Origin: Cylindrospermum stagnale PCC 7417
GTDB lineage: Bacteria > Cyanobacteriota > Cyanobacteriia > Cyanobacteriales > Nostocaceae
Length of the DNA: 64,000 bases
NCBI RefSeq assembly: GCF_000317535.1
Contig: NC_019757.1
Span: forward strand, 843,001-907,000
Direction: 5' to 3'
Notes under the pieces: model-generated
The model's database searches: none
What the model was told of the DNA's origin: nothing
What the model saw: only the letters and a program-made list of their open reading frames with translations
Shown here: positions 18,179 to 45,266 of the stretch, piece by piece
Layout of the letters: every line of letters begins with the position of its first letter
How positions within the stretch are numbered: position 1 is the stretch's first letter
Made by a program: the position numbers and the translations under genes

Positions 18179-18645
18179 TGATAGATTTGTATAATATCAT
18201 TTCCTGAAAAGCCTGATAGAAATAAAGCCTTTAAAATAAAATTCCGGTCCGTAATGGATTTAACTTGAGCGCATATCATGCTATTTAACTGTTTTTGTAC
18301 AGCTTGTGGTTGGTTATCAAGTTCATGTGACTGAGATGGCTTCTGCTTCCTAATTGCTCTCTACCATCACTCAACAGTTATTGCTGTTGCTATGGGGTGG
18401 AATAACCACAGCAACACATCTTGCTGCCTACTTTCGCCAAAATCACTCTTTCAAGCTAGAACTGATGTGATAAATCACACAATGAGGGCATGGAAATCTC
18501 TCTTCTCTAGCCCCTAGCCCCTAGCCTCTAGTCTCTATTTTCAAGACAAAAATTGTAATTCATCTTCCCTGCTTCTTCTCGATTCTCCCCTAAATTAAAA
18601 ACCATCAAACCAAAAACAAATCTCTTGAAGGAGAAGGAGGATCTA
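18179..18645. other. Gap without a gene, holding a weak copy of the shared promoter motif
   Basis: These 470 bases separate two divergent genes. No credible ORF is visible. The right end contains the weak copy of the direct-repeat promoter (18565-18596) and a strong GAAGGAGG ribosome-binding site for the next gene. Confidence 0.5.
18565..18596 (+). promoter_or_regulatory. Direct-repeat promoter module, weak copy
   Basis: TTCCC (18565-18569), six bases, TTCTC (18576-18580), ten bases, TAAATT (18591-18596). The spacing equals the other five copies, but one box and the -10 differ. It lies 50 bases before the DUF6345-like gene. Confidence 0.5.
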
Positions 18646-19395
18646 ATGGCCAAATTTGGCATAGAAGGCATTCGATCTTTTAGCAATGCGCGTGCTGCGG
18701 GCGTCAGCACTGCGGGGGACTTAACCTACACATTCAATATATGCAACGGTTTCGACAGTAAGCTGCGTTCAGCTGGTCACACGCGCTCTTTTTACTTTGC
18801 CAATACAGATTGTTGGGAAACTGACATCCGTGATTCAGATAAAGGTGGCGACGATGTGAATTGGGTGGACAATGTAGATATTTTCTGGATTAGCACTCAT
18901 GGCAATCATACGTCCGATGGACAAGCCAGGCTGCTTTACGACATCCCCCGTAAGAACTGGCGTACCTTTTCAGGTCAGTGGCAGCTCGGCGAGAACTGGA
19001 ACGCTGAATGGGTAATGGCCTTTTCTTGCGAAACCGTTGACCGCAACAACGTCTCTGGGCTTTGGAATATCTTTGCTGGGATGCATATTTATTGCGGTGC
19101 TTGGGGAAAGATGTATGACGGCATTACCACTGACGAATGTGGTGAAGATGTGGCTGAAAACCTCATAAATGGTCACACAATCTCCGAAGCCTGGATCGAT
19201 GGTGTGTCCGATTGGTGGGTAGACAACCACCCAATCACGGTCTGCGTGGGCGACGCGGACACCTGGAATGGTGGCAACATCAAATGGGAGCGCAGCTACC
19301 TGAATCGAGACCACCTCTGGGGACACGGCAATGTCGATCCAGATTTGCCACCAGCTAAACAATCCTGCATTTTATGTCGTTGGGCGGAGGGTTAA
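18646..19395 (+). CDS. DUF6345-like protein with a caspase-type His/Cys dyad
   Basis: This 249-residue protein lacks a signal peptide. It has DIFWISTHGNH (His85) and, about 40 residues on, VMAFSCETVD (Cys128). This strand-His-Gly ... strand-Ser-Cys-Glu pattern is the one seen in CHAT and other clan CD peptidases. I think it belongs to DUF6345, whose function is unsettled, and peptidase activity is inference. The ATG at 18646 follows a perfect GAAGGAGG; the frame is open a little upstream. Base composition is visibly richer in G+C than the flanks, suggesting transfer. Three bases separate it from the next gene. Confidence 0.65.
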   Translation: MAKFGIEGIRSFSNARAAGVSTAGDLTYTFNICNGFDSKLRSAGHTRSFYFANTDCWETDIRDSDKGGDDVNWVDNVDIFWISTHGNHTSDGQARLLYDIPRKNWRTFSGQWQLGENWNAEWVMAFSCETVDRNNVSGLWNIFAGMHIYCGAWGKMYDGITTDECGEDVAENLINGHTISEAWIDGVSDWWVDNHPITVCVGDADTWNGGNIKWERSYLNRDHLWGHGNVDPDLPPAKQSCILCRWAEG

Positions 19396-19398
19396 ACC

Positions 19399-20325
19399 AT
19401 GAGCGATGATCGGATATTGATTGAGAAAATAGCTAGCAGCGTGGAGGGCGTATCCTCGATCCCTTCGCGTGCTGAGATCCTTGAGGTGCGGCAGCACTCT
19501 CTTGACGACATAGAACAACGGGCTAAACGTTTCCTAAATATAGCTGCCGAGGCATTTAGCTTACCCATAGACCGTCGTGATTTGTCTGTAGAGAATGACC
19601 GGACGCTTATCCGCTTGCCGCTTGGGGCGCAGTTAACAGCCTATCATGCTTCCGGCGCGATTCAGCTCGTCACCGGACTCAATCCAATGGAGTCGCTTTT
19701 CGAGGATGTTGAGGAGCGAGAAAGGCTACTAGAACTGGTTAAAGGAACCACAAGTCGCTTAAACATCCGCGAGTGGGTAGGGAAAAACGAGTCCCTGAAC
19801 TTTGAGCAGTTGTGGCAAATCAAGGCTGCTGCTGCCGACCAGAAAGGTCAGACAGTCAAACCAGTACTTTGCCGAGTGGTTGGAGCCTATCGTCACTTTG
19901 TAGGTGAGTTACCGATATTGGGCGCAGCTTCGGTAGCTGTCAAGCTAGCTAACAAAGGAACACTTGACTCTTTAACGGTTCAGGTGCGTGAGACTATCGA
20001 CCAGGTAATCGACCGAGTAGAAATCCTTCCACCAGAACAGGCAGCCCGTCAGATATTCCTACAGTTAAGCTCTCGGATGGGTGAATCGAAGATCCCAATC
20101 AGCAATATCGCTGCCCCCAAGTGGATGCGTTTCGGCTACCTGAGTCTGACAAAGCGTAAAGCCCAACGTTTGCTGGCACCAGTTTATCTCGCCGCCATCG
20201 AGATTGAAGGGCAGGAAGAGGCGCAGGCGTATTTATTTGCCACCCCAGCAACTGAGAAAACGTACCTGCCCCTTTCCACCGAAGGCAGTGAGCCACCCAC
20301 AGTTGCCGTGCGCCGTGCCGCATAG
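19399..20325 (+). CDS. Unknown partner of the DUF6345-like protein
   Basis: This 308-residue soluble protein has no recognised family. It is rich in charged helices and has no signal peptide or membrane segment. Its ATG lies 3 bases after the stop of the DUF6345-like gene, so the two are almost certainly one operon. It shares the elevated G+C and unusual codon use of its partner. A partner, inhibitor or activator of the putative peptidase is a guess from position only. Confidence 0.6.
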   Translation: MSDDRILIEKIASSVEGVSSIPSRAEILEVRQHSLDDIEQRAKRFLNIAAEAFSLPIDRRDLSVENDRTLIRLPLGAQLTAYHASGAIQLVTGLNPMESLFEDVEERERLLELVKGTTSRLNIREWVGKNESLNFEQLWQIKAAAADQKGQTVKPVLCRVVGAYRHFVGELPILGAASVAVKLANKGTLDSLTVQVRETIDQVIDRVEILPPEQAARQIFLQLSSRMGESKIPISNIAAPKWMRFGYLSLTKRKAQRLLAPVYLAAIEIEGQEEAQAYLFATPATEKTYLPLSTEGSEPPTVAVRRAA

Positions 20326-20460
20326 CCAGCTTTAACATCTTCTCCAAGGTTAGAAGATATCTGCAAATAAGTGCGGTTTTCCAAAACATTGCTCAACAAT
20401 GTTTTGGAGGAGTCCAGAATTGCTAGTCTTCAGGAAGGATTAATTGCATCTTCATAAAGA

Positions 20461-20643
20461 AATAGTATCGTTGCTTCTGCAAACAGTTCTTATGATGGTG
20501 ATGATGCCTAAAACATTGTCAATCGGTTATCTAATGGCAATAGCATTCAAATTGAAAAGTGTTTTAAGGCAAGAGATTCCAACCTACAATATTGGGAGAA
20601 AATAGTCGATGCCGTTGCTTCTGTTTGCCAAGCTTTAAATTAA
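20461..20643 (+). pseudogene. Decayed C-terminal coding fragment
   Basis: One frame reads about 60 protein-like residues (NSIVASANSSYDGDDA, stop, NIVNRLSNGNSIQIEK...YWEKIVDAVASVCQALN, stop) interrupted by a TAA at about 20508. There is no start codon or ribosome-binding site. I read it as a relic of a small protein, but chance is possible. Confidence 0.3.
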
Positions 20644-23193: not shown

Positions 23194-23325
23194 TACTGCA
23201 TTTGTTAGTTCTTGGTAGTTGGTTACCTTATGTTAATTATTACACAGTATTCACTAAACTAATGCACAAATTAATTTGTGTTTAATATTACATATTCTTC
23301 ACTAAACTAATAAGGAATAACTAGG

Positions 23326-24501: not shown

Positions 24502-24511
24502 ATATAATACC

Positions 24512-25917: not shown

Positions 25918-25949
25918 TTTCCTAGTTATTCCCGATTGCTCTCTAATCT
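25918..25949 (+). promoter_or_regulatory. Direct-repeat promoter module
   Basis: TTTCC (25918-25922), six bases, TTCCC (25929-25933), ten bases, TAATCT (25944-25949), then a conserved leader with a CCAGG...CTTGG hairpin near 25983-25997. It lies 100 bases before the gene at 26052 and in the gap shared with the sigma operon. Confidence 0.75.
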
Positions 25950-26051: not shown

Positions 26052-26474
26052 ATGACATTACCACGTAGAGTAATTATCAATACCAACGCTTACGGTGTCG
26101 ACGATAAAAATATTGTAGCAAATCAAACAATATCTAGAAGCACCACGCAAACGTTGATTCTGAACAATACCGATGTAGTCAAGCTTTCGCCATTTGTTAT
26201 AGGTTGGGGCGGTGAATGCCGTTTTGAGCTTAAACTCGCTTTGCAAGTTTTATCAGATAAAACACAGGTTAGATTATTTGGAGAAGCTCTTTTATTTGAA
26301 GGAACTAGTGAAAAGACATCTGATTTGGATGGAAAGCTCGTAATTGACGAAATAATTCCTAGTACAAAGACAGGAAATATAAAAATCCAAAAGCGAGTCA
26401 ATAATACAGACGAAGGCGGCGACTACGTAGATTTCAATTTTGTAGTTGACAATATTACCGTTCCTGTTGATTAA
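26052..26474 (+). CDS. Small unknown beta-rich protein
   Basis: This 140-residue protein has no recognised family. It alternates hydrophobic and polar residues as beta strands do, lacks cysteines other than Cys57, and has no signal peptide or membrane helix. The ATG follows CAGGAAAAAT. It is preceded by the shared promoter module and conserved leader, like the PPC gene at 39314, so it may be made together with the secretion genes. A role as a secreted or surface protein is inference. Confidence 0.65.
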   Translation: MTLPRRVIINTNAYGVDDKNIVANQTISRSTTQTLILNNTDVVKLSPFVIGWGGECRFELKLALQVLSDKTQVRLFGEALLFEGTSEKTSDLDGKLVIDEIIPSTKTGNIKIQKRVNNTDEGGDYVDFNFVVDNITVPVD

Positions 26475-26677: not shown

Positions 26678-26709
26678 TTCCCTAGTTCTTCCCGATTGTC
26701 CTCTAATCT
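26678..26709 (+). promoter_or_regulatory. Direct-repeat promoter module
   Basis: TTCCC (26678-26682), six bases, TTCCC (26689-26693), ten bases, TAATCT (26704-26709), followed by the conserved leader with CCCAG...TTTGG. It lies 108 bases before the gene at 26818. Confidence 0.8.
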
Positions 26710-26817: not shown

Positions 26818-27129
26818 ATGGTTCCTACAAACTTCCAGCCTAAAACTACCAATTCTCAAGCACGCCAACAACTATTAGAAGAGCTTCAGCAAGTAATTGA
26901 TGGGATGTTAAGAAAATATGACTTCACCCAAGTGGTTCAAAAGTACAAACTATCAAAAGAAGAAGTCATTCAAATTCAGTGTAGTATCAATATCATAAAA
27001 ACTCAGGTTAATGAGTCTGATACTAGAAAAGCTGATAGTTACAAGAAGAAGGATATACCATCCTATTGTACCAATCACACTTGCTTGGACTCGAATGGTG
27101 AGGAAATCAAGTGCCCTGAAAATCATTGA
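26818..27129 (+). CDS. Small unknown protein with a Cys-containing tail
   Basis: This 103-residue protein has a helical, Gln/Lys-rich first two thirds. A short tail follows with three cysteines (Cys84, Cys89, Cys99 in YCTNHTC and IKCPENH); a fourth, Cys55, lies earlier. There is no signal peptide, no double-glycine leader and no family that I recognise. It has its own copy of the shared promoter module and leader, and a strong terminator downstream, so it is a single-gene unit. A substrate for the transporter at 41.5 kb or a small peptide precursor is possible but unproven. Confidence 0.65.
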   Translation: MVPTNFQPKTTNSQARQQLLEELQQVIDGMLRKYDFTQVVQKYKLSKEEVIQIQCSINIIKTQVNESDTRKADSYKKKDIPSYCTNHTCLDSNGEEIKCPENH

Positions 27130-29928: not shown

Positions 29929-32220
29929 TTACTGAAAGTTTTGCAGCATCACCAATTGATACAGTGATTGTAGGGTTTTGCCATCGTTGGGATACTCAGC
30001 TATGCCAAAATTAAATTTCACATCAAAGCGATCGCCATTCGGTGCAGTGAAGACTTGCTGCCGCAGGGTAGTCAAAAATTCATTGAGGCGATCGCTTACC
30101 TGTTGTTTCGTTAACCCAGGAATGCCGACCACAAACTCCCCATTTCCCCAGTAGCCCAACGCCTCTGCACCGCGAAAAGCAGTCTGAAACAAGCGACCCC
30201 AGCGTTGTAGAATTTGGTTGCCTGCGACATGACCATATTGAATATTGAGCGATCTCAACTCTGCCATACTAAATACTGCCAGACAGAAACAAGATGCAGT
30301 GTCAATCAGTTCCTCTAAGTCCCGACTGGATTGGAGTTGATTTGGTAATCCAGTCAACAGGTCTTTAGTAGAGAGTGTCTGGAGCATACGGCTACGCTCT
30401 AAACGATTGGTGATGCGAGTTAACAATTCTGGCCCAACCACTGGCTTAGTTACATAGTCATCTGCCCCAGTAGCAAACACCTGCTGAATAATTTGGCGAT
30501 CGCTACTAGCAGTTAGAAACACAATCGGCAAACCCTGCCACTGGGGATCTGTACGGACTGCTTGACACAATTCAATCCCACTAAGTTGGGGCATATTCAC
30601 ATCCAAAATTAACAAATCAGGAGCCACAGACCGCAACACTTCCCAGAACCGTAGAGGGTTATCTAACGCCGTCATCCGCATTCCCCAAGGTTCCAGCATC
30701 GAACGCAATGCTGCCAAAAAAACAGGGTCATCATCCACTACCAGCACTTTCACTATTTGGGAATGGGTACGTTGTAATAACTGTCTTGCCATAGCCCAAA
30801 CTTGCCCGCCTGTCACAGGTCTAACTAAAAATCCCTGTCCGCCAGCACGAGCTACCGTCACTCGATCCAACAGCCCATCTGCCGAGGCCAGCACTACTAC
30901 CGGTATTGGCGGAGTCCGAGCCGCTAGCTCAGATAGTAATGCCAGACTATCTTCCTGCACTCCCACCATATCCACAGCCAACACCACCAAATCCGGCGAG
31001 TGAGACTGAAGCCAGGTTTTGGCTAGCTCTAACGTTGTCAAGAGTTGCCAACTCAGGTTGAGCGCCAGCGCTTGTTCTTGTAATTCTCGACTGAGATTTT
31101 CGTCAGTGTCAATCAACAACAATCGAGAAGTCGCTGAAGACAGGGCCATCTTTGACTCGGCTGGTTCCAATAGCTCAGTTAATTTCTTGACTAAATCTAA
31201 AAATTGGCGCTCCTGATTTGGTTGCAAAGCCTGATTTTCTAACAAAATCTGTTCAATTTCTCTTGCCCATAAGGTTCCAGTTTCCCGTTCAAACATCCCC
31301 AAAACACCAGCCAACTTATGTGCAGCTTCCCCAGCATTCTGGCGTAATTCTGGGGATAGCGTCCCTATCTGTACTGCTTTAGCTGCTGCTTGCACAGATG
31401 CTAGACGTTGAGCCATTAATCCCTGATACTGCTGCCACAGTTGACTTATTCCCTGCTGGAATTGCTGCTCAAGGGAGGGTGAGGAAGATGAGGGAAGTGA
31501 GGAAATAACACTAATTCCCCCCTCTGCGTCCCTAGTCCCCTGCACCCCTACACCCATCTTCAACCGATACCCCAAGCCGTAAACATTCTCAATCCAGTCT
31601 GCGGCTCCTACAGCCTTGAGTTTTTGCCGCAAACCTTTAATATGTGCCTTGACACTCTCCTCCAAAGGGGGGTCGTCATACGTCCAGAGAAGCTCGACCA
31701 GTTGCCCCCGACTAAATACCCGTGACGGGTTCCGCAAAAAAATTTCTAACAAGCTGTATTCTTTGGGAGTTAGTGCCAGAGATTTCTCGTCATAGGTTAC
31801 CAAACAACTTTGAGGATCTAAACGCAGATTGCCTACCTTGAGCACAGTTGTGGGAGAAACCCGGCCGCGCCGCAGTAATGCTCGTGACCTTGCTTTGAGT
31901 TCTTCCAATTTCAGAGGTTTAATTAAATAGTCGTCTGCACCCGCGTCTAGTCCGCGAATGATCTCAGTACTAGCATCTCTGGCAGTGATTAGTAAGATGG
32001 GAACCGAGCATCTGTCTGCACGTAAACGCTGGCATAAAGTAATCCCATCAATTTTGGGGAGTCCCACATCCATAACGATGAGGTCGTAGTTGGTGTTTTG
32101 AGCATATTCCCAACCAGTTTGACCATCCCGTGCCGTATCTACCGCGTATTGTTGACTTTTAAAAGATTGCAGCAGTAACGGCAGTAAAACTTCATCATCT
32201 TCAATCAACAAAATTCGCAT
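29929..32220 (-). CDS. OmpR-type regulator with extra receiver, Hpt and GGDEF domains
   Basis: This 763-residue protein has, in order: a receiver (1-115, Asp51), an OmpR/PhoB winged-helix DNA-binding domain (about 125-222), an Hpt-like helical domain (about 260-350), a degenerate receiver (about 368-480, whose acceptor region reads VVLAVDM), a full receiver (about 488-605, LLILDVNMP) and a C-terminal GGDEF-type domain (about 615-760). The signature of the last reads GNGEF instead of GGDEF, so it is probably not an active diguanylate cyclase. DNA binding is direct, and the domain class favours 11-bp direct repeats such as the promoter modules here. No cognate kinase is adjacent on this strand. 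Confidence 0.88.
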   Translation of the reverse strand: MRILLIEDDEVLLPLLLQSFKSQQYAVDTARDGQTGWEYAQNTNYDLIVMDVGLPKIDGITLCQRLRADRCSVPILLITARDASTEIIRGLDAGADDYLIKPLKLEELKARSRALLRRGRVSPTTVLKVGNLRLDPQSCLVTYDEKSLALTPKEYSLLEIFLRNPSRVFSRGQLVELLWTYDDPPLEESVKAHIKGLRQKLKAVGAADWIENVYGLGYRLKMGVGVQGTRDAEGGISVISSLPSSSSPSLEQQFQQGISQLWQQYQGLMAQRLASVQAAAKAVQIGTLSPELRQNAGEAAHKLAGVLGMFERETGTLWAREIEQILLENQALQPNQERQFLDLVKKLTELLEPAESKMALSSATSRLLLIDTDENLSRELQEQALALNLSWQLLTTLELAKTWLQSHSPDLVVLAVDMVGVQEDSLALLSELAARTPPIPVVVLASADGLLDRVTVARAGGQGFLVRPVTGGQVWAMARQLLQRTHSQIVKVLVVDDDPVFLAALRSMLEPWGMRMTALDNPLRFWEVLRSVAPDLLILDVNMPQLSGIELCQAVRTDPQWQGLPIVFLTASSDRQIIQQVFATGADDYVTKPVVGPELLTRITNRLERSRMLQTLSTKDLLTGLPNQLQSSRDLEELIDTASCFCLAVFSMAELRSLNIQYGHVAGNQILQRWGRLFQTAFRGAEALGYWGNGEFVVGIPGLTKQQVSDRLNEFLTTLRQQVFTAPNGDRFDVKFNFGIAEYPNDGKTLQSLYQLVMLQNFQ

Positions 32221-34130: not shown

Positions 34131-37004
34131 ATGACCTTAAATGTAGACGGTTTAGTTAGCCAACTGCGGGTAACTCTAGGGAAGATGGAGGTAGCACTAG
34201 GAGCAATTGCTGATGCTATCGTCTGGATGGGTAATGATGGCAGAGTGCAGTGGTGTAATGCTGCTTTCGATAGATTAGTGAATCTACCTCATATTCTAGT
34301 GCTGAATATGAGACTAAATGAGGTACTACCATTAACACAATCGGGTCAAGCAGTTGCCACAGATTGTTATCCTGATGTGCAAGTTCTCCGCTCCGAGTAT
34401 GAAACCACAGAATATGAATATCAACAAGAGGTAGATGCAGAGCGGCATGTCAGTAGATATCGCCCCTTAATTTTAGAAATTTCAGGAAACTGTGCCGAAT
34501 ATATAGGAGGTGAAAGGTCGGCTGTACTTGTAATTCGGGATGTCACGCAAGCAAAGCGCATACAAGCGGAACACCAACAAACAGAGCAGCAACGGGCAGA
34601 AACTCTGTCTTTTCTCCAATCTACCCTGGAGTCTACAGCAGATGGAATTGCTGTTTTATGTAGTGATGGGAGCCTTAGTGTCTATAATCACAAGTTCCTA
34701 CAGATGTGGTCGATGCCAGAGTCATTGCTATCGCCATCTCAGAGCAATGAAAGATTGAGGTTTATGGCTGAACAGACGCGAGATTCGCAAGCCTTTATTG
34801 TTAGGGCCAGGGAACTGTTAATTGATTACCCAGAACAGGCAGCTTTTGACGTAGTAGAACTCAAGGATGGCAGGGTTTTTGAGCGTTATTCCCATAGACA
34901 ATGCCACGGCGATCGCATTGTTGGACGAGTTTGGAGTTTTCGAGATATTACTGAGCGCAAGCAAGCAGAAGTAGCTATGCAGCGCTGGGCACAGGCAGAC
35001 AAGTTACTCAGCAGTATTTCCCGGCAGTTGATCGACCAGAATCTAGAAACTGCGGTCAATTTTACCCTGCAAGCGATCGCTGAATTCTTTGAGGCTAGAC
35101 GCAGTTATATATTTGAATACTCTGAGCAACAGCAGCAGTTTAACATTGTTCATGAGTGGCAAACTGATGGCGCGCAAACATTATCTAGCAATATCACTAG
35201 TGCTGTGGAGCCGTTTCCCTGGTTCTACAACTGTATTCTTAGTGGCAAACCTGTACAAGGCTTACAAGTTGTCCATGTTGCAGATATGCCAGCAGAGGCA
35301 ACGTCAAAGAAATCTCTGTTGTATAAAGAAGTTATTCAGTCTCTAGTGGCTGTACCTATGATCCATGCTGGTAAAGTTGTAGGGTTTTTGGGAGTGGATA
35401 TCGTTGATGACCGTAAAACTTGGAGCCAGGAGGAGATTAACCTCTTACAACTCATAGGAGAACTGATTGCTATTGGTCGCTCACGACATCAGGTCGAAGA
35501 AGAATTGCGATTAGCAAAAGAATCTGCCCTACGGGAAGCAGCAAGCAGTGCTGAAGCTAACCGTGCTAAAAGTGTCTTTCTCGCCAACATGAGTCACGAA
35601 CTCCGCACCCCGCTGAACGCTATTCTGGGTTTTGCCCAGTTGATGGAGCGAGATACCGCCCTCACTCAGCATCAGAGAGAATCTCTGGCAACCATCAATC
35701 GCAGCGGGGAACACCTGCTGAAATTAATTAACGATGTGTTAGAGATGTCCAAAATCGAAGCTGGTCGCATGGTTTTCAACCCGGAACCCTTTGACCTGCA
35801 CCAGTTGTTACAAATTATTCAAGAAATGTTCCAAGTAAGAGCTCAGTCGAAAAAACTCTACTTAACAGTTGAACTGGCTCCAAATTTACCGCAATACATC
35901 TTTACCGATGAGGGTAAGCTGCGGCAAGTCGTGATCAACCTTTTGGGTAATGCCATTAAATTTACCGATTCTGGAGGAGTCACGCTGCGAGTTAAAGGCG
36001 AAGAACTCTTCAGGACAGAACTCCCCCGTTCTCCTAGCTACTCCCTACATTTTGAAATTGCCGATACTGGTAAAGGAATTGCGGCTGAGGAATTAGATAG
36101 ACTCTTTCAACCCTTTGTGCAAACGGCTAGTGGTTTCCAATCTAAAGAAGGTACGGGACTGGGGTTGACCCTCAGCCGTCAATTTGTGCAGTTAATGGGA
36201 GGCGATATCAGTCTCTCTAGTGAGGTAAATCGGGGGTCTACTTTTGATTTTGAGATTAAAGTGGAACAGGCATTGCGATCGCAAGTTCCAGCACCAACCC
36301 CCAAAAAGCGGGTACACAGTTTGGCTCTTGATCAACCTGTGTATCGAATACTAGTGGTAGATGACCGCATAGAGAATTACAAAATATTGATACAATTACT
36401 CAACGCCGTTAGTTTTGAAACCCGTCTGGCAACTAACGGTCAGGAGGCAATACAAGAGTGGCAAGCATGGCATCCCCACCTAATTTGGATGGATATGCGA
36501 ATGCCTGTGATGGATGGTTATGAGGCAACTCGACAGATTCGCGCCCAAGAACAGAGGCTCCAGAAAGACAACTCCGACCAAAATTTTCGGACAGTAATTA
36601 TTGCCCTCACAGCCAGTGCTTTTGAAGAACAGCGCTCCGATATATTAGCCGCAGGTTGTGACGACCTGATCCGTAAGCCATTCCGGGAAGCGGTCATTTT
36701 CAATAAAATAGCTGAACATTTGGGAGTACAGTACCTTTATGCACAAGAGCAAGAGAGCCAGCAAACCGCGCAAAGAGTCACTAAAGTAGAGCCACTAACC
36801 TCAAAAGACCTAGCTGTTATGCCTGAAGCATGGATAAATGCTCTACATGAGGCAGCCATCCAGGTTGATGCCGAACTAATTTGTGAACTGATTCAACAAA
36901 TCCCCGAAGCCCATTGCGCTTTAACTCAAGGACTGACTGAGCTTGTGAGTCTTTTCTGTTTTGACGAAATAATTGAGTTAATTACGGGAGAAGAGGATGC
37001 ATAG
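34131..37004 (+). CDS. Hybrid histidine kinase, PAS-PAS-GAF-HK-receiver
   Basis: This 957-residue soluble sensor kinase has two PAS domains (about 15-135 and 155-275) and a GAF domain (about 285-450). HisKA follows with His489 (NMSHELRTPLNA), then HATPase with NAIKFTDSGG, DTGKGI and GTGLGL (about 590-720), and a receiver (about 740-865, Asp788 in WMDMRMPVMDG). A helical tail follows. The GAF pocket sequence lacks an obvious bilin-binding cysteine motif, so the signal is unknown. Its end overlaps the next gene by 8 bases, which points to coupled translation and a shared pathway. Confidence 0.92.
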   Translation: MTLNVDGLVSQLRVTLGKMEVALGAIADAIVWMGNDGRVQWCNAAFDRLVNLPHILVLNMRLNEVLPLTQSGQAVATDCYPDVQVLRSEYETTEYEYQQEVDAERHVSRYRPLILEISGNCAEYIGGERSAVLVIRDVTQAKRIQAEHQQTEQQRAETLSFLQSTLESTADGIAVLCSDGSLSVYNHKFLQMWSMPESLLSPSQSNERLRFMAEQTRDSQAFIVRARELLIDYPEQAAFDVVELKDGRVFERYSHRQCHGDRIVGRVWSFRDITERKQAEVAMQRWAQADKLLSSISRQLIDQNLETAVNFTLQAIAEFFEARRSYIFEYSEQQQQFNIVHEWQTDGAQTLSSNITSAVEPFPWFYNCILSGKPVQGLQVVHVADMPAEATSKKSLLYKEVIQSLVAVPMIHAGKVVGFLGVDIVDDRKTWSQEEINLLQLIGELIAIGRSRHQVEEELRLAKESALREAASSAEANRAKSVFLANMSHELRTPLNAILGFAQLMERDTALTQHQRESLATINRSGEHLLKLINDVLEMSKIEAGRMVFNPEPFDLHQLLQIIQEMFQVRAQSKKLYLTVELAPNLPQYIFTDEGKLRQVVINLLGNAIKFTDSGGVTLRVKGEELFRTELPRSPSYSLHFEIADTGKGIAAEELDRLFQPFVQTASGFQSKEGTGLGLTLSRQFVQLMGGDISLSSEVNRGSTFDFEIKVEQALRSQVPAPTPKKRVHSLALDQPVYRILVVDDRIENYKILIQLLNAVSFETRLATNGQEAIQEWQAWHPHLIWMDMRMPVMDGYEATRQIRAQEQRLQKDNSDQNFRTVIIALTASAFEEQRSDILAAGCDDLIRKPFREAVIFNKIAEHLGVQYLYAQEQESQQTAQRVTKVEPLTSKDLAVMPEAWINALHEAAIQVDAELICELIQQIPEAHCALTQGLTELVSLFCFDEIIELITGEEDA

Positions 37005-38487
37005 TCAGCCATTAGACAAACCTAAAGCCAATATTCTAGTCATTGATGACACTCCAGAAAACTTGCAGCTTTTAGCTGCCATGCTGACAGGACAAGGTTA
37101 CAAAGTTCGTAGTGTCACCAAAGCTACAGCCGGTCTGCGGGGAGCGCAAGCAGCGCCACCAGACTTGATTTTGCTGGATGTAAATATGCCAGAGATGAAT
37201 GGTTATGAGGTTTGTCAACATCTCAAAGCCAATGAGATCACTCGTGACATTCCTGTAATTTTTCTGAGTGCGATGGATAGCGTGCTAGATAAAGTGAAAG
37301 CCTTTTCAGTCGGAGGCGTAGACTACATTACTAAACCCTTCAACGTCGAAGAGGTGCTGGCACGTTTAGAAAATCATTTGATGATTCGCAATTTGCGTGC
37401 ATCGTTGCAAGAGCAAAATACTAGGTTAGAACAGGAGATTCAGGAGCGCCAGCAGGCGGAGGAAAAGTTTGCCAAAGCTTTTAGTTCTAGTCCCAGTCCT
37501 ATAATGATTTCTTCCCTGGCAGATGGCTGCTTTATTGATGCCAACAGTAGTTTTTTGAGAATGAGTGGCTATTCCCTAGAGGAAATTATTGGTAACACCT
37601 TCACAGAACTCAATTTGGGAATGAATCAACAAAAGTACGCTAGCACAATTGGGCAACTTTTGGAAAAAGGATCTCTGCAAAATCATGAAATTGAATTTCG
37701 TACCAAATTAGGCGAAGTTAGAATTGCTTTGCTCTCTGCGGAACTCATTGAGCTATCCGGGAGAGAGTGCGTCCTCAATACTCTCAACGATATCACTGAG
37801 CGCCGACGGTTAGAAAACGAATTCATCTCTTTAGTTAGCCATGAACTACGTACCCCCCTCACCTCTTTGGTGGGAGCTTTAGACCTTTTAGCGGCTGGAC
37901 AGCTAGGAACGCTGACTTCAAGAGGTCAACAAGTCCTAAATATTGCTATTACCAACACTGAACGCTTGATTCGTTTAGTCAATGATATTTTAGACTTGGA
38001 ACGGATAAAATCGGGTAAGCTGACCATCCAAAAGGTCAAGTCTAACGCGGCCAACCTACTTACCCAGTCGGCAGAAGTTATGCAACCGATGGCGGAACGC
38101 TCCCAAATCAATCTTGTTGTTGAACCCATCACGGCTGAAATCTTAGTAGATCCAGACCGGATACTGCAAACTCTGACTAACTTGTTGAGCAACGCCATCA
38201 AATTTTCCGAACCTGGTACTACTATTTGGCTGCGTGCCCAGATGCAGCCAAATTGCTTGCAAATCACAGTTCAAGACCAGGGACGAGGTATTCCGGCTGA
38301 TAAACTACAGACAATTTTTGAGCGGTTTCAGCAGGTAGATGCCTCCGATTCTCGCAACAAAGGGGGCACAGGTCTAGGGTTGGCTATTTGCCGTAACATT
38401 TTTGAGCAACATGGCGGTAATATTTGGGCAGAAAGCATTCTGGGTCAAGGCAGTATCTTCTATCTGACTCTGCCATTACTAGAGTAA
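36997..38487 (+). CDS. Receiver-PAS histidine kinase
   Basis: This 496-residue protein has an N-terminal receiver (Asp61 in LLDVNMPEMNG), a coiled-coil linker, a PAS domain (about 155-270), HisKA with His282 (SHELRTPLTS) and a HATPase ending GTGLGLAICR. The receiver at the front suggests that it takes a phosphate signal from another kinase, most simply the hybrid kinase whose gene it overlaps. An AGAGG ribosome-binding site lies inside the upstream gene. Confidence 0.92.
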   Translation: MHSQPLDKPKANILVIDDTPENLQLLAAMLTGQGYKVRSVTKATAGLRGAQAAPPDLILLDVNMPEMNGYEVCQHLKANEITRDIPVIFLSAMDSVLDKVKAFSVGGVDYITKPFNVEEVLARLENHLMIRNLRASLQEQNTRLEQEIQERQQAEEKFAKAFSSSPSPIMISSLADGCFIDANSSFLRMSGYSLEEIIGNTFTELNLGMNQQKYASTIGQLLEKGSLQNHEIEFRTKLGEVRIALLSAELIELSGRECVLNTLNDITERRRLENEFISLVSHELRTPLTSLVGALDLLAAGQLGTLTSRGQQVLNIAITNTERLIRLVNDILDLERIKSGKLTIQKVKSNAANLLTQSAEVMQPMAERSQINLVVEPITAEILVDPDRILQTLTNLLSNAIKFSEPGTTIWLRAQMQPNCLQITVQDQGRGIPADKLQTIFERFQQVDASDSRNKGGTGLGLAICRNIFEQHGGNIWAESILGQGSIFYLTLPLLE

Positions 38488-38529: not shown

Positions 38530-38913
38530 ATGAGTAAATGTGTATTAATAGTTGATGATGAAGAAGATGTGCGGGCGATCGCTCAAATGGGATTAGAAAT
38601 GGCAGCAGGTTGGACAGTGCTAACTGCTAGTTCTGGACAAGAAGCTTTGGTCGTAGCAGCAAGCAACCAACCTGATGTCATTCTATTGGATATGATGATG
38701 CCTGATATGGATGGTCGGGCAACCCTGCAACAACTTAAAGTGAACCCGATAACTCAGCATATTCCCGTTATTCTGGTTACTGCAAAGGTTCAACCTTCAG
38801 AACAACAGAGCTTTCTTCTGTTGGATATTGCTGCTGTATTTGCTAAACCCTTTCGTCCCTTAAAGTTGGCTGACGAGATCAGTAGTGTCTTGAGTTCTAT
38901 TGCAAAAACATAA
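38530..38913 (+). CDS. Stand-alone receiver (CheY-like) protein
   Basis: This 127-residue single-domain response regulator has the acidic pocket (VDDEED), Asp54 (LLDMMMPDMDG), a Thr in VTAK and a conserved Lys in AKPFRP. It has no output domain, so it probably passes phosphate on or acts by protein contact. It lies 42 bases after the second kinase gene and completes the three-gene signalling block. Confidence 0.9.
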   Translation: MSKCVLIVDDEEDVRAIAQMGLEMAAGWTVLTASSGQEALVVAASNQPDVILLDMMMPDMDGRATLQQLKVNPITQHIPVILVTAKVQPSEQQSFLLLDIAAVFAKPFRPLKLADEISSVLSSIAKT

Positions 38914-39113: not shown

Positions 39114-39176
39114 TATCTGTGCCTCTTTTCAAGGAGGTTGAGTAATTACAAAATTTTTTCCAAATAGCGATCGCGC

Positions 39177-39208
39177 TTCCCTAGTTCTTCCCGATCACTC
39201 TCTAATCT
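39177..39208 (+). promoter_or_regulatory. Direct-repeat promoter module
   Basis: TTCCC (39177-39181), six bases, TTCCC (39188-39192), ten bases, TAATCT (39203-39208), then the conserved leader with CCCAG...CTGG near 39240-39261. It lies 105 bases before the PPC gene. Confidence 0.8.
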
Positions 39209-39313
39209 TAAAAGTATCGAGGGCAGACAGAAAAGCAAACCCAGAAAAAACCTGGAAGCAATTATCTCAACCTCATTATATCAAACAACAAACAAATTTC
39301 CGGAGCAAAAAAA

Positions 39314-40075
39314 ATGTCACTTATTCAAATTGGTTCTCTATCTAGCGCTGCTGTTACCAAAAATGATTTCTCTTTAAGTGCAGGTGAACCCGATGATGTG
39401 TTTCAATTCCAAATCGGTAGTACCAGAAATATTAACCTAGCGCTTACAGACATTAGTGCTAGCGATAATGCCGACCTAAGACTGTATCGAGACAATGGTG
39501 ATGGTATATTCAACGCCAGCACTGATCCATTGATTCAATCTGCTGGTAAGTTTTTGAATGACGATGAGGCAATTAATGTCAGAGCAGATGCAGGTACTTA
39601 TTTTGCCCAAGTCCAGCGCTATGATGCTGGTAGTCAAGGTGGTGTAACTTATGATTTAGCCTTATCTGCAACTGCGCCCGGTAATATAAATGATTTCAGC
39701 AACCTGCTGCCCACAGAGGTTGAACTTGGTTTTGTATCATCTAATGCCACCCGTACTGGTAATGTAAGTAATTCAAACACTGCTGATGTTTACCACTTCA
39801 CGCTGGGACTCTTTACGGGCGCAAACATTTCACTGACAGGAATCAGCTCAACTGCTGATGCTGACATCCGACTGATTCAAGACATTAACCAGAATGGCAT
39901 CGTTGACGCAGGCGAGGAACTTCGACGCTCTACTAATAATCTAGGACAGTCAGAGTTTTTCCAAGCTTTTGGAACTCAGGGCAACGGTGAATTTTTACTG
40001 CAAGTCAACCAATATTCTGGTACTACCAACTATACTCTCAACATCGATGTCTTTGATAGCATTGGAATTGCTTAA
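39314..40075 (+). CDS. Two-domain PPC (pre-peptidase C-terminal-like) protein, probably exported
   Basis: This 253-residue protein is made of two PPC-like beta-sandwich domains (about 15-118 and 138-250). Each has an Asp/Asn-rich loop resembling a calcium site (YRDNGDGIF; DINQNGIVDAGEE). There is no peptidase domain and no N-terminal signal peptide. Proteins of this kind are often exported by type I systems through a C-terminal signal, and a type I transporter gene lies 1.4 kb downstream. It carries the shared promoter module and leader, and inverted repeats follow the stop. Confidence 0.8.
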   Translation: MSLIQIGSLSSAAVTKNDFSLSAGEPDDVFQFQIGSTRNINLALTDISASDNADLRLYRDNGDGIFNASTDPLIQSAGKFLNDDEAINVRADAGTYFAQVQRYDAGSQGGVTYDLALSATAPGNINDFSNLLPTEVELGFVSSNATRTGNVSNSNTADVYHFTLGLFTGANISLTGISSTADADIRLIQDINQNGIVDAGEELRRSTNNLGQSEFFQAFGTQGNGEFLLQVNQYSGTTNYTLNIDVFDSIGIA

Positions 40076-40599: not shown

Positions 40600-41379
40600 A
40601 TGACGAAAGTTTTACAATTAGGCGATCGCGCGATCGCCTCTGAGGAGATCATTCCCCTCCTCGCTAGCTATCAGCTAATTCCGCAATTACTGGGCGAGAG
40701 GATTATTGACCAAGCAATTTTATCAGTTACCTGCACCCCTGAAGAAACGGCTCAAGCTTGTGCAGAATTTTATCAACATTGGGAATTGACTTCAGAAATC
40801 CAACAGCAAAACTGGCGATCGCAATATGATTTAACCCAAGAGAAATTGGAACTCTTGGCAACGCGAAAACTCAGAACAGAAAAGTTTAAGCAAGCGACTT
40901 GGGGTCATAAATTAGAATCTTATTTTCTGCAACGCAAACGACAACTAGACCAAGTTATTTACTCTTTAATTCGCGTTGACAAGATCGGAATAGCTAACGA
41001 ACTTTATTTTCGTATCCGCGAAGGAGAAGAATCTTTTGCTGAGTTAGCCCGGAAATATTCTCAAGGGACAGAAGCACAAACCTATGGCATTATCGGCCCA
41101 GTTGAGTTAGGGAATTTGCCCTTAAATTTGGCAAATCTACTATATACCATTCCCGTTGGGGAAGTTCAACCCCCTGTACGTTTCGGAGAATGGCTGGCGA
41201 TTGTACGTATTGAACAAGTCATTCCAGCACGTTTAGATGAATTTATGCGTCAAAGACTGCTCAAAGAAAATTTTACAGTTTGGTATCAGCAGCAATTATC
41301 TCAACTTTCCCCACGGGAACAAATATGGATGGGTATTAAACCGCCGCCAGTAAAAGCGATGGAAAATTTAGCAGCATGA
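40600..41379 (+). CDS. PpiC-like peptidylprolyl isomerase
   Basis: This 259-residue protein has a parvulin-type (PpiC/SurA-like) domain at about 120-215 (FAELARKYSQGTE, then GIIGPVELGNLPLNL) after an N-terminal helical part. There is no signal peptide. Cyanobacterial genes of this type often precede peptidase-like ABC transporter genes of type I secretion, as here, where the transporter starts 141 bases on. It may keep substrates export-competent in the cytoplasm. An AGAG sequence precedes the ATG. Confidence 0.85.
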   Translation: MTKVLQLGDRAIASEEIIPLLASYQLIPQLLGERIIDQAILSVTCTPEETAQACAEFYQHWELTSEIQQQNWRSQYDLTQEKLELLATRKLRTEKFKQATWGHKLESYFLQRKRQLDQVIYSLIRVDKIGIANELYFRIREGEESFAELARKYSQGTEAQTYGIIGPVELGNLPLNLANLLYTIPVGEVQPPVRFGEWLAIVRIEQVIPARLDEFMRQRLLKENFTVWYQQQLSQLSPREQIWMGIKPPPVKAMENLAA

Positions 41380-41464: not shown

Positions 41465-41496
41465 TTCCCTAGTTCTTCCCGATCGCACTCTAATCT
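41465..41496 (+). promoter_or_regulatory. Direct-repeat promoter module
   Basis: TTCCC (41465-41469), six bases, TTCCC (41476-41480), ten bases, TAATCT (41491-41496). The transporter ATG lies only 25 bases beyond the -10 box, so the leader conserved at other copies is absent and the mRNA would have a very short 5' end. Confidence 0.75.
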
Positions 41497-41520
41497 GAAG
41501 ACAGTTCACAGGATTTGGCA

Positions 41521-44500
41521 ATGGTAACTGACAAGGTGAAGGTAGCTCAAACCGAGACAAATACTAGTGTTGATCTTCAACAATTTATTGCAGGACTGTT
41601 TCCTTTTAATTATCTACCATTAAATATATTAGAAAACTTGCTCAACAAAGTGCAGTTATTTCGCTACCGCATGGGTCAGCTGATAGTGGCACGGGAAGCA
41701 ATGCCAGAGCAAATTATTATTATCTATGAAGGTCAGGCGCGGCTTTTAGGCTATGAATTCGGCAAAGCTAATCCGGCAACACTCAAGCTACTCTCGGCTG
41801 GGGAAGTTTTGGGCTGGGTAAGTCATGTGCGGGGAGTAGCTTGTGAAACTGCGATCGCTTCTAGCGAAGTCATCACCATTAATCTACCTGTTGCAGATTT
41901 TTTGGCATTGATGCAGCAGGAATCGGCTTTTGCTCAAGCATTATATCAAACTGCTTCTTTGATTGAAGTCTATGAATTACTCCAAGCTGAACTGCATCGT
42001 TGCGCCGACGGTAGCCAAAATTTGGTGAAGCTGACTCAAGCAGTCAACCCAAATGCGATCGCCAAAACAATCACGACTCGCCAAGCATCACCCCAGTTAG
42101 ATTCAGAATATTTGTGGTTAATTAGTGGTAGTTCTAGTGCAGAATTTCCTGTGGGTAGTTGCCTAGAATCAGAATATCTCAACCCCAAGCTGAAATTTCC
42201 TGCACCGATGCGTCTGCTGGGGTTACCCAAAACTTTACTCGGTAAACAACCAGCCCCAAAACTGGCAAAGTTAACCCCAATTGCCTACGCCCCAGAAATT
42301 AACATTACACCAGAACCAGCAGCATCAGACAATAAACAAAAATATCCTTGTGTCCGAGGTAGAGGTCCGTTAGATGCATCTTTGGCTTGCTTCCAAATGT
42401 TAAGCCAATATTTTAATATCCCTTTTCGCAAAGATACAGTGCGGCGGGTGTTGACGAAGCAACAAACACAAACAGGTAGCATATCTCTGCAATATTGCGG
42501 TGCTGTTGCTGAGTTGATCGGTTTAACTACACAAATGGTGAAAGTACCAGCATCCGCAGTTAGTCGCTTGCAAGCACCAGTCATGATTTCCTGGCAAGAC
42601 AGTTTTGCCATCATCTACAAAAACAGTAACCAAGAATTACTAATAGCCGTCCCAGAAATGGGACTATTACGCCGCAAAGCCAAAGACTTTGCCGAAACCT
42701 GGGGTGAAGAAGGGGAAGTACTACTACTGCAACCCACCAAAAACACCCCCAAAGCTAGATTTAGTCTGCAATGGTTTGTCCCTGCACTGCGGCGCTATCG
42801 GAAAGTTTTAACTGAAGTCCTGGTTGCTTCCATTGTTATCCAAGTATTTGGGCTAGTAAACCCTTTAGTCACCCAAGTAATTATCGACAAAGTGATAGTC
42901 GGTAATAGTCCAGATACTCTAGAAGTATTCGGCATATTTTTACTCGTGGTGGCAGTGGCGGAAGCAGTCCTCACCAATCTCCGCACCCATTTGTTTACTG
43001 ATACCACCAACCGAATTGACCTCTCATTAGGTTCTGAAGTTATCAATCACTTGTTGCGGCTGCCATTATCTTATTTTGAGTGCCGTCCCGTGGGGGAATT
43101 GGCAACACGCATTCATGAACTAGAAAATATCCGCTCATTCCTCACCGGTACAGCCTTGACTGTGGTGATGGATGCAGTATTTTCGGTAGTTTATATTTTG
43201 GTGATGGCGATTTATAGCCCAGCACTGACCTTAGTTGCTTTGGCAACAATACCGATGTTCGCTTTGCTTAACTTGATGGTGTCACCGTTGATGCGGCGAC
43301 AATTACAACAAAAAGCCGAACGCAACGCCGAGACGCAATCTTACCTAGTGGAAATCATGGGAGAAATGCAAACAGTCAAGGCGCAAAATTTAGAAATGCG
43401 ATCGCGCTGGCAATGGCAAGAACGTTATGCTCGTTACATCAGTGCAGGCTTCAAAACAGTCTCTACCCAAACTACTGTCGGTTCCATTAGCAACTTCCTT
43501 AACAAGCTCTCTAGTATGCTGGTGTTATGGGTGGGAGCTTATCTGGTTCTCAATCACCAACTGACACTAGGGCAACTCATCGCCTTCCGGATCTTAGCTG
43601 GTTATGTTTCTAGCCCCCTGTTGCGCTTGGTGCAACTCTGGCAGAACTTCCAAGAAACTGCTTTGTCTCTACAACGCCTCGCCGATATCTTGGACACTCC
43701 CCAAGAGACAGAAACCGATAGCCAAAATATCCTCATGCCTAGTATTCAAGGCAGTGTGCGCTACGAAAATCTCTCCTTTAGTTTCCGGGAAAATGGCCCA
43801 CTGCAACTGTGCAATATCAACTTAGATTTCCCTGCGGGTTCCTTTGTGGGGATTGTCGGTCAAAGCGGTTCTGGGAAAAGTACACTGCTCAAGTTACTAC
43901 CCCGACTTTATGAACCCAAGTCCGGCAAAATTTTAATTGATGGCTACGACATCAGCAAAGTTGAACTTTATTCACTCCGCACTCAAATTGGCATGGTGCT
44001 GCAAGATACGCTGTTGTTTGATGGCACGGTGCGCGAAAATATTGCCTTGGCTTGTCCTGATGCTAGCGATGAAGAAATTATTGCCGCCGCTAAGGTAGCA
44101 TTTGCCCATGACTTTATTATGTCGTTGCCCAGTGGCTATAACACCCGTGTCGGGGAACGAGGTTCAGCTCTATCTGGTGGACAACGCCAACGAGTGGCGA
44201 TCGCTCAATCTCGTGAGAAAAGCCGCAATACCGCAGCATTATCCCAAGAGGATTTGTTAGCTAAAATCACGGCTAATGATCAAACTATTGCAGAAATTGA
44301 TAGTCAATTGACTAAGATGATTGTTGATAATACAAAGCGCCTTTATGAAATTAATAGTCAAATTGGTGATTTAGATAGTAAGTTAACTCAAGCACAAGAA
44401 ACTCTGAAATATCAGCAACTTAAGTCGCCTGTGGATGGGATAGTTTTTGAACTCAAGGCTAAGGCTCCAGGGTTTGTGGTTAATCCTAGTGAACCGATTC

Positions 44501-44871
44501 TCAAGGTAGTTCCTAGTGGGAGTTTGGTGGCTAATGTTTATATTACTAATCGCGATATCGGTTTTGTAAAAGCAGGACAAACTGTAGATGTGAGAATTGA
44601 TTCTTTTCCGTTTCAAGAATATGGCGATATTCAAGGTGAGTTAGTTGAGATTGGTTCTGATGCTTTGCCTCCTGACCAGGTTTATCAGTTCTGGCGTTTT
44701 GCGGCTAAGGTTCGTCTGGATGGGCAAACTTTGCTGATTAATCAGCGCCAAGTTCCCTTACAATCTGGTATGTCTGTTAATGCCAATATTAAGCTACGTC
44801 AGCGCACTGTTATGAGTATCTTTACCGACTTTTTGGTGCAAAAGGCTGAGAGTTTAAAGTCTGTTCGCTGA
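41521..44871 (+). CDS. Type I secretion ABC transporter fused to the C-terminal half of HlyD, ATPase truncated
   Basis: This 1116-residue hybrid protein starts with a cyclic-nucleotide-binding-like domain (about 15-150). A C39-like domain (about 270-405) follows in which the catalytic-Cys position reads DASLAC in place of DCGxAC. The ABC membrane domain spans about 430-720, then comes an ATPase domain with Walker A (GQSGSGKST) and signature LSGGQRQR. At about residue 893 the sequence switches, at a HIP1 octamer (44197-44204), into a coiled coil and beta-barrel of an HlyD adaptor (about 895-1116). Walker B, the H-loop and the HlyD membrane anchor are missing, so it is probably inactive as it stands. 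ATG 41521 is preferred to TTG 41515. Confidence 0.85.
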   Translation: MVTDKVKVAQTETNTSVDLQQFIAGLFPFNYLPLNILENLLNKVQLFRYRMGQLIVAREAMPEQIIIIYEGQARLLGYEFGKANPATLKLLSAGEVLGWVSHVRGVACETAIASSEVITINLPVADFLALMQQESAFAQALYQTASLIEVYELLQAELHRCADGSQNLVKLTQAVNPNAIAKTITTRQASPQLDSEYLWLISGSSSAEFPVGSCLESEYLNPKLKFPAPMRLLGLPKTLLGKQPAPKLAKLTPIAYAPEINITPEPAASDNKQKYPCVRGRGPLDASLACFQMLSQYFNIPFRKDTVRRVLTKQQTQTGSISLQYCGAVAELIGLTTQMVKVPASAVSRLQAPVMISWQDSFAIIYKNSNQELLIAVPEMGLLRRKAKDFAETWGEEGEVLLLQPTKNTPKARFSLQWFVPALRRYRKVLTEVLVASIVIQVFGLVNPLVTQVIIDKVIVGNSPDTLEVFGIFLLVVAVAEAVLTNLRTHLFTDTTNRIDLSLGSEVINHLLRLPLSYFECRPVGELATRIHELENIRSFLTGTALTVVMDAVFSVVYILVMAIYSPALTLVALATIPMFALLNLMVSPLMRRQLQQKAERNAETQSYLVEIMGEMQTVKAQNLEMRSRWQWQERYARYISAGFKTVSTQTTVGSISNFLNKLSSMLVLWVGAYLVLNHQLTLGQLIAFRILAGYVSSPLLRLVQLWQNFQETALSLQRLADILDTPQETETDSQNILMPSIQGSVRYENLSFSFRENGPLQLCNINLDFPAGSFVGIVGQSGSGKSTLLKLLPRLYEPKSGKILIDGYDISKVELYSLRTQIGMVLQDTLLFDGTVRENIALACPDASDEEIIAAAKVAFAHDFIMSLPSGYNTRVGERGSALSGGQRQRVAIAQSREKSRNTAALSQEDLLAKITANDQTIAEIDSQLTKMIVDNTKRLYEINSQIGDLDSKLTQAQETLKYQQLKSPVDGIVFELKAKAPGFVVNPSEPILKVVPSGSLVANVYITNRDIGFVKAGQTVDVRIDSFPFQEYGDIQGELVEIGSDALPPDQVYQFWRFAAKVRLDGQTLLINQRQVPLQSGMSVNANIKLRQRTVMSIFTDFLVQKAESLKSVR

Positions 44872-44927
44872 TGGGGCGACGAAATAGGTTAAAAAGCTTA
44901 TGAGATAAAGAACGAAGCAATTTATGG
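44867..44927. repeat. Repeat shared with 62264-62324
   Basis: A 17-base identity (GCTGATGGGGCGACGAA) and, at the same offsets (29 and 52), GCTTATG and AATTTATGG are shared with 62264-62324. The TGA stop of the transporter lies inside it. It is probably the end of a mobile element relic. Confidence 0.6.
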
Positions 44928-44988
44928 TTGAAAAATATAGGTCTATTTTTGTCAATAAATCCTACCTATTTGTCAATAAGCCCTATCT

Positions 44989-45040
44989 GGAGAGCGATTT
45001 TTTTCGGGGGAGATGAGACTGGCAATGCGGTAAGATGACC
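44989..45040. repeat. Dispersed intergenic repeat, copy 2 (reverse orientation)
   Basis: Reverse complement of the repeat at 15431-15481: GGAGAGCGATTTTTTTCGG, then GGGAGATG and CGGTAAGATGACC. The rest of the gap 44872-45354 holds no gene that I can support, only a short, stop-interrupted minus-strand frame (about 45046-45213). Confidence 0.6.
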
Positions 45041-45234
45041 CAATGTCAGATTCTGAGCTGTTATGTTCATAAACCTCTTTTTCTCTTTTAATTGCAGATA
45101 GTTATACTCAAATTTTTCAGTAAAAATTTCCGAAACTTCTCAATGGCTCACACCGCGTAAATGTTCTTTAGCCAACACGAGAATAGCACGAAGAACAGGA
45201 AAAAAAGTGTGATGGCTAGTTTCGGTTATTTTTC

Positions 45235-45266
45235 AGGTTAAATAACGATCGGGAAAAACTAGGGAA
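45235..45266 (-). promoter_or_regulatory. Direct-repeat promoter module, orphan on the minus strand
   Basis: Read on the minus strand: TTCCC (45266-45262), six bases, TTCCC (45255-45251), ten bases, TAACCT (45240-45235). No credible minus-strand gene follows. It points toward the 3' end of the transporter gene 360 bases away. Confidence 0.6.

Follow-up and report, generated by a model that had tools for sequence, protein, structure and literature searches.

What reads a promoter module that recurs, with fixed internal spacing, ahead of seemingly unrelated genes in a cyanobacterial chromosome? The question is posed by a 64,000-nt stretch of Cylindrospermum stagnale PCC 7417 (GCF_000317535.1, NC_019757.1, positions 843,001-907,000, forward strand; hereafter the window, within which positions are numbered), for which a preliminary description had reported six copies of the pattern TTCCC-N6-TTCCC-N10-TAATCT. 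We propose, with a probability of roughly 0.75, that the module is a PhoB-like operator-promoter in which the operator replaces the -35 box, and that it serves a phosphorelay regulon read by the protein encoded at 29929-32220. From sequence comparison we infer binding, the flow of phosphate, activation over repression, control of the targets and the signal. All six copies are present where they had been placed:

18565..18596, plus strand: module copy 1 (TTCCCTGCTTCTTCTCGAT...TAAATT), ahead of a DUF6345 gene; relaxed pattern, profile E 2.6e-10.
25918..25949, plus strand: module copy 2, ahead of the 140-aa open reading frame (ORF) 26052-26474; relaxed pattern, profile E 1.5e-13.
26678..26709, plus strand: module copy 3, ahead of the 103-aa ORF 26818-27129; exact pattern, profile E 1.7e-14.
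39177..39208, plus strand: module copy 4, ahead of a PPC-domain gene; exact pattern, profile E 8.2e-14.
41465..41496, plus strand: module copy 5, shortly ahead of a C39-ABC/HlyD ORF; exact pattern, profile E 1.7e-11.
45235..45266, minus strand: module copy 6, facing the 34-aa ORF 44966-45070; relaxed pattern, profile E 1.8e-11.

All six copies themselves helped to build the profile from which these E-values come. The exact pattern is found in the window at 26678, 39177 and 41465 (0 in 100 dinucleotide shuffles), while the relaxed pattern, with two mismatches allowed, brings in 18565, 25918 and the minus-strand copy 45266-45235 and reaches 9 matches where 1.57 are expected (at most 5 in any shuffle); the three further relaxed matches, all of which lack the box, are probably due to chance. 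Copy 18565 had been labelled weaker, a label not borne out by the profile, which ranks it as a strong family member. Fixed boxes separated by N6 and N10 describe the spacing correctly but not the extent of the element. When the 28 sites found in this genome and in relatives are aligned, it emerges that the N6 'spacer' is itself conserved (TAGTTC) and that GAT follows the second box, so that the element consists of a box of about 20 bp plus the -10. The 28-site consensus reads CTTCCCTAGTTCTTC[C/T]CGAT, 7 variable bases, TAA and then the majority letters AAAANTATCNA downstream, and conservation stops just upstream of the box and shortly after the -10.

In order to avoid circularity, the geometry was tested on 48 loci found by the 19-mer box alone, a set in which only part of the matches from one of two box searches was kept. 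TAANNT stands exactly N10 past the second TTCCC in 14 of these loci, and at other offsets between 0 and 15 in none of the 48. Sorted by box quality, TAANNT at N10 accompanies 7/7 exact boxes, 3/5 boxes with one mismatch, 3/24 with two and 1/12 with three; L026, one of the 14, may be a chance match because it lies outside the family of the window's genome and is devoid of the downstream letters. The value of ten depends on the register chosen, since the gap counted from the 8-bp repeat TTCCCGAT is 7.

A sequence-only profile built from the 28 aligned sites retrieves 8 matches from the C. stagnale genome (E 1.7e-14 to 5e-9; next best 0.26). As all eight sites are among the builders of the profile, it is the gap to the next match rather than the score that is informative. 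The regulon had been described as local: six of the eight strong sites do lie in the window, but the remaining two, 3.0 and 3.5 Mb away, precede a 106-aa ORF with no known family and a gene encoding a glycoside hydrolase of family 44. Copies 25918, 26678 and 39177 have in common an ungapped 92-bp stretch (25892-25983, 26652-26743 and 39151-39242; 65-71% identity), and for 25918 and 26678 this extends to 109 bp at 78% identity, box included, with part of the 5' leader in common too; these three copies therefore probably arose by duplication. Rfam scanning of the window at gathering thresholds returned no family.

Beyond this genome, a profile match (E 1e-3 or better) was found in 83/217 genomes of the family, often with several matches within 30 kb, and in 41/291 genomes of an order-wide sample (family members included). 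Since no more than 25 motif candidates were scored per genome in the family and 19 in the order-wide sample, with 13 for the regulator and, in the family, 7 for the kinase, members may be missed in these and the following counts, in which G128 (38% contaminated) was kept. The number of sites reaches at least 14 in one family genome and at least 17 in one genome of family f20, where the sites are dispersed; seven f20 genomes (G299, G315, G420, G443, G447, G465 and G471) have at least 10-17 dispersed sites each, with more variable -10 boxes, and the f20 regulon is perhaps larger than that of the window's family. For context, 38 loci were fetched, of which L060-L064 contain no full site and were excluded, leaving 101 profile sites from 34 loci (33 fetched plus the window), with ORFs called mechanically. 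Upstream enrichment, expected of a promoter since the preliminary description, is evident: an ORF starts on the same strand within 400 nt of 87 of the 101 sites, compared with a mean of 16.6 and a maximum of 32 for random places in the same loci (1000 draws), and only 4 sites fall inside an ORF of at least 150 aa (random mean 75.5, smallest 62).

The protein proposed to read the module is encoded between copies 3 and 4, on the opposite strand, next to genes for two-component proteins:

29929..32220, minus strand: proposed module reader of 763 aa, with receiver (REC), winged helix-turn-helix (wHTH, OmpR type), histidine phosphotransfer (Hpt), REC, REC and degenerate GGDEF domains; evidence from Pfam, co-occurrence and the recognition helix.
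34131..37004, plus strand: hybrid histidine kinase, PAS-GAF-HisKA-HATPase-REC (Pfam).
36997..38487, plus strand: histidine kinase with N-terminal receiver, REC-PAS-HisKA-HATPase (Pfam).
38530..38913, plus strand: stand-alone receiver protein (Pfam).

The wHTH of the 29929-32220 protein belongs to PF00486 (Trans_reg_C; E 1.6e-21, residues 146-220), with PhoB, CovR and BaeR as relatives in the PDB. Asp51 of its first receiver (...MDVGLP...) is kept in 12/12 aligned orthologue rows, the window included, as well as in the paralogue of L117, and the Hpt histidine is also kept. Conversely, the GGDEF site reads GNGEF in all 10 homologues that cover it, window included, and synthesis of cyclic di-GMP was rejected on the ground of this degeneracy (no GG[D/E]EF). 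Taken together, these features suggest that the output is most likely DNA binding, fed by the adjacent kinases.

Relatives of the two-component genes recur near sites: among the 34 loci, 18 have a relative of 34131-37004 (in part perhaps other hybrid kinases), 14 a relative of 36997-38487, 13 a relative of 38530-38913 and 13 a relative of 29929-32220, this last set including a paralogue (L117). Because these loci had been picked for having sites, a genome-by-genome test was run, in which a best match of at least 214 bits to the wHTH-Hpt part was taken as an orthologue (next proteins at most 189 bits); G034, whose match falls into two pieces, was included at 202 bits. By this measure 57 of the 217 family genomes have the regulator, and the motif is present in 56 of these 57 versus 27 of the 160 without it, 22 of the 27 having just one or two sites (Fisher p 6e-30, relatedness ignored). 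The kinase 36997-38487 is encoded in 63/217 genomes, 60 of which carry the motif. At least three sites are present in 55 genomes, and in five of these the search detected no regulator; four of the five have the kinase, and G209 alone lacks both. A table of 18 genomes (G070 and 17 that have at most ten contigs; for G150 the regulator copy at 7.16 Mb was used) places the regulator within 27 kb of the nearest site among the matches listed in 15 of them, distances being upper bounds. Of the 39 motif-positive genomes outside the family, 37 were searched (G382 and G451 left out) and 23 of these have an orthologue at 199 bits or more; sites adjoin kinase genes in families f15, f27 and f33 as well (L221, L223 and L220, respectively).

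A second line of evidence comes from variation within the box, which exists in two dialects, TTCCC...TTC[C/T]C and TCCCC...TCCCC. The two repeats shift jointly at their second base: the 101 sites comprise 50 TT, 40 CC, 2 CT and 9 with A, and 49 sites fetched outside the family comprise 39 TT, 9 CC and 1 AT. In pattern searches of the 217 family genomes, 23 matched the first dialect and 54 the second (reversed-pattern controls, 1 and 0); four genomes appear in both lists, via sites with unlike repeats, among the matches listed. Residue 192 in the recognition helix follows the dialect without exception, being Ala in 27/27 regulators with TT sites and Ser in 46/46 with CC sites. Dialect was assigned from pattern counts with one mismatch inside the family and from fetched sites (1-6 per genome) outside it, and six of the 79 regulator rows, having no motif class, were excluded: the second copies of G149 and G150, those of G109 and G196 (no pattern-matched site) and those of G345 and G468 (sites unfetched). 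Residue 186 (Leu or Gln) was also considered as the specificity residue; it is less consistent, agreeing in 68/73, and because it dissociates from residue 192 in G443, G420, G434, G373 and G242 we favour the latter.

The dialect goes with the type of regulator, not with the genus, in genus g33 (G034 versus G060), and Stenomitos frigidus ULC18 (L272) combines Gln186 and Ala192 with TT-type sites at 5/5 positions near the gene, its -10 boxes reading TANNNT, not TAANNT. As a separate observation, the second regulator copies G149:C124:40240 and G150:C1:3531315 have Gln186 and Ala192, and the pattern-matched sites in these two genomes belong to the other dialect. By alignment, residue 192 presumably corresponds to Val197 of PhoB; no gap falls in the recognition helix in alignments with CovR, DrrD and BaeR. 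In the PhoB-DNA structure, thymines in both half-sites are contacted by Thr194 and Val197 (PMC3973317; this and all other papers cited here are drawn on in excerpt).

Both lines of evidence point to the 29929-32220 protein, which the preliminary description had already placed among the candidates, as very probably one regulator reading the module. Several observations nevertheless weigh against this assignment. Both regulator and kinase are absent from 151 family genomes, yet 20 of these carry the motif, 18 of them with one site; G195 has two sites (its contig ends before the expected place of the regulator gene) and G209 three. Conversely, G109, which has both proteins, shows no motif match at E 1e-3, and no motif was found in G003 and G076, which have the kinase. 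Among the matches listed, G070, G162 and G221 have no site near the regulator, although in G070 and G221 a site lies about 150 bp or less from the kinase gene; in a scan of named genomes 5/13 orthologue loci have a site in the fetched flanks, and the regulator search outside the family covered motif-positive genomes only. As for the dialects, an A occupies one of the two key positions in 9/101 sites, and a helix-masked tree gives two dialect changes, one of them well supported, while the regulator tree splits nearly alike. With one or two changes an independent-pairs test cannot reach significance, and the dialect match is therefore a structural argument that is statistically weak. Finally, stand-alone OmpR-type regulators with a wHTH 54-67% identical are encoded outside the family and could read the same site.

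The last point leads to the alternative that another OmpR/PhoB-type regulator, for instance a stand-alone one, reads the box and that 29929-32220 is a mere companion of the cluster, for which the 27 motif-positive family genomes without an orthologue may also be adduced. We consider this unlikely in view of the 56/57 co-occurrence and the 73/73 match at residue 192, and with most of those 27 genomes (22) having so few sites.

How might the 29929-32220 protein act on the module? In the mechanism that we envisage, the kinase pair (34131-38487) would hand phosphate via receivers and Hpt to the first receiver of the regulator, whose winged helices, of OmpR/PhoB type, would bind head-to-tail on two 11-bp direct repeats (TTCCCTAGTTC TTCCCGATNNN). 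A -10 box at -12 to -7 would put these repeats at -38 to -28 and -27 to -17, the usual -35 contact zone, such that the bound dimer could stand in for the absent -35 box and recruit RNA polymerase with a housekeeping-type sigma factor to TAATCT. Here the switch would drive a few genes, most of them local, that encode small or secreted proteins and their type I exporter, plus the two distant genes; in relatives the same switch stands ahead of lanthipeptide, acyl-ligase/acyl carrier protein (ACP) and other secretion-linked genes. The OmpR/PhoB-type layout recognized from the outset holds, the repeats being followed at a fixed N10 by TAANNT. Moreover, a sigma-70-type scan of 25850-26850 did not list copies 25918 and 26678 as two-hexamer promoters; an unrelated match that it did list, at 26613-26640 upstream of copy 3, is no more than chance would give in the region (3 found, 2.5 expected). 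Given the missing two-hexamer match and a layout like that of the Pho box and AfsR sites, we infer activation by -35 replacement.

Since the site overlaps the -35 region, where polymerase binds, the same regulator could instead be bound there as a repressor that blocks RNA polymerase. To this reading we attach little weight: no two-hexamer sigma-70 promoter was listed at the two copies scanned, and the layout resembles those of the Escherichia coli Pho box (PMC1906773) and of AfsR boxes, centred at -29.5 (PMC10936776).

A sigma factor and a CHAT neighbourhood had been drawn into the circuit by the preliminary description, and neither is supported as part of it. Near orthologues (at least 72%) of the sigma-like protein 24512-25768 are encoded in 5/217 genomes and broader homologues (E 1e-40) in 159/217, compared with 83/217 for the motif, a distribution that speaks against a promoter specific to this sigma; relatives of the sigma, CHAT and DUF1822 genes are near sites in 3/34 loci, window included. 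That the element is the promoter of some alternative sigma factor, possibly this region-4 protein, is accordingly very improbable, even though the sigma gene adjoins a site in the window, G002, G034 and, on its own, G195, and all five genomes with a near orthologue carry the motif; two 11-bp repeats that change jointly fit a dimeric activator, not a sigma factor. Scarcely credible is the notion that the copies are dispersed or mobile repeats with no regulatory role, for although 92 bp are common to three copies and 6/8 copies are local, their placing and orientation ahead of genes are far above chance, conservation in the 28 sites ceases just before the box and shortly past the -10, several families of the order carry the module, and no longer mobile repeat was seen in the alignments, in which ends and target duplications were not searched systematically.

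Turning to the genes that follow the sites, targets are presumed from their position, representatives having been examined. In the window these are:

18625..19395, plus strand: DUF6345 protein, presumed target (Pfam, ORF).
26052..26474, plus strand: 140-aa protein, presumed target; no family found.
26818..27129, plus strand: 103-aa protein, presumed target; no family, sub-threshold Phage_zn_bind match.
39314..40075, plus strand: PPC-domain protein, presumed target (Pfam); PPC proteins also follow sites in L049 and L109.
40600..41379, plus strand: PpiC-type isomerase adjoining presumed targets (Pfam); relatives follow a site in L049 and L111.
41515..44871, plus strand: peptidase C39/ABC transporter fused in frame to a C-terminal HlyD part, presumed target (Pfam).

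As first proposed, the five plus-strand copies precede genes, but the minus-strand copy points away from 45355-46014. Its nearest downstream minus-strand ORF of at least 20 aa is the 34-aa ORF 44966-45070, possibly a remnant of a lost target; a purine-rich stretch stands ahead of its ATG. The exporter gene 41515-44871 encodes C39-ABC up to about residue 900 and then the C-terminal part of HlyD; with neither the last part of the ATPase nor the first part of HlyD present, it looks broken, and L053 has exporter and HlyD as intact separate genes. The small ORFs of the window were also considered as precursors of ribosomally synthesized and post-translationally modified peptides, for which NCBIfam gave no support; of two c5 peptides of relatives, one passes the Nif11-like leader cut-off and one just misses it.

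A link to secretion, already suspected, is supported. In relatives, sites lie near genes for LanM enzymes with Nif11-like leader peptides and for HlyD/HlyB exporters. Other sites of relatives are accompanied by acyl ligase, desaturase, ACP, Coq4-like and cyclopropane-synthase-like genes, by haem-oxygenase-like, cupin and acyl-ligase genes, or by a gene for an RTX-repeat protein. Downstream of sites in L109, a PheRS-core/FDX-ACB protein followed by a prephenate dehydratase (1723-3939) suggests a phenylalanine-related product, and in L108 a protein with a Mo-dependent nitrogenase C-terminus domain (15222-15551) is encoded between site and exporter gene. Elsewhere in the window, the block 20845-25768 encodes a CHASE2-CHAT protein, a DUF1822 protein and the sigma-region-4 protein, and occurs together with TPS and DUF928 genes in the window, G002 and G034 (3/34 loci). 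Two copies of a 41-bp AT-rich direct repeat, their starts 48 bp apart, lie upstream of the CHASE2-CHAT gene (23223-23311).

Neither motif nor regulon was found described in searches of open-licence literature listings, where the exact 19-mer has 0 matches. The layout belongs to a known kind; for the regulator architecture, the box, the dialects and the link to varied secreted-product clusters those searches found no description. If right, the proposed regulon would identify the regulator, the operator and a single residue of specificity for a group of cyanobacterial secreted-product clusters; regulons could then be predicted, and the module could help to find and switch on such genes. A broader proposition, to which we give even odds, is that across cyanobacterial families one portable phosphorelay-promoter cassette has come to stand ahead of natural-product and secretion clusters that are unrelated to each other, its dialect being set by one residue of the recognition helix, with Ala192 reading TTCCC and Ser192 TCCCC. 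Such a code would allow searches for secreted-product genes that are co-regulated and possibly silent.

Several known systems offer points of comparison. SphR is a simple REC-wHTH protein. Like the proposed reader it is a cyanobacterial OmpR/PhoB regulator, and its Pho box (CTTAACCT) is made of 8-bp repeats with 3-bp linkers (PMC1906773); it differs in the letters of the repeats, in having at least three repeats per site and in serving phosphate-starvation genes. The Nostoc J-Box is likewise a promoter element shared within the Nostocaceae, and the opposite strand of our module contains GGGAA, as does the first half of the J-Box; in contrast, the J-Box (GGGaAtacT) is an extended -10 in gene direction read by the sigma factor SigJ (PMC6495340). 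Identity of the two elements was rejected, GGGaAtacT being absent in gene direction, by reading, from the 28 aligned sites. The Anabaena CdgK-CdgS system, as far as the excerpted account goes, differs in architecture (PMC9927289). Closer in layout are the SARP/AfsR sites of Streptomyces, with repeats at a period of 11 or 22 bp, the last 8 bp from the -10, ahead of antibiotic genes (PMC10936776). Those regulators have a BTA domain and no phosphorelay, and Pfam detects no BTA domain in 29929-32220 (REC, wHTH, Hpt and GGDEF only) or in two orthologues scanned; the systems are analogous, their architectures not homologous. In the E. coli Pho box a 3-bp linker separates two 8-bp repeats, which lie 10 bp upstream of the -10 (PMC1906773). 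PhoB and the present system have in common an OmpR/PhoB winged helix, tandem repeats of 11-bp period just upstream of a TAN3T -10 and, presumably, the position of residue 192, where Val197 of PhoB contacts thymine. They differ in the letters of the box and in their targets, phosphate genes there and presumed secretion and natural-product genes here, and the cyanobacterial regulator is a relay protein with an Hpt domain, two more receivers and a degenerate GGDEF.

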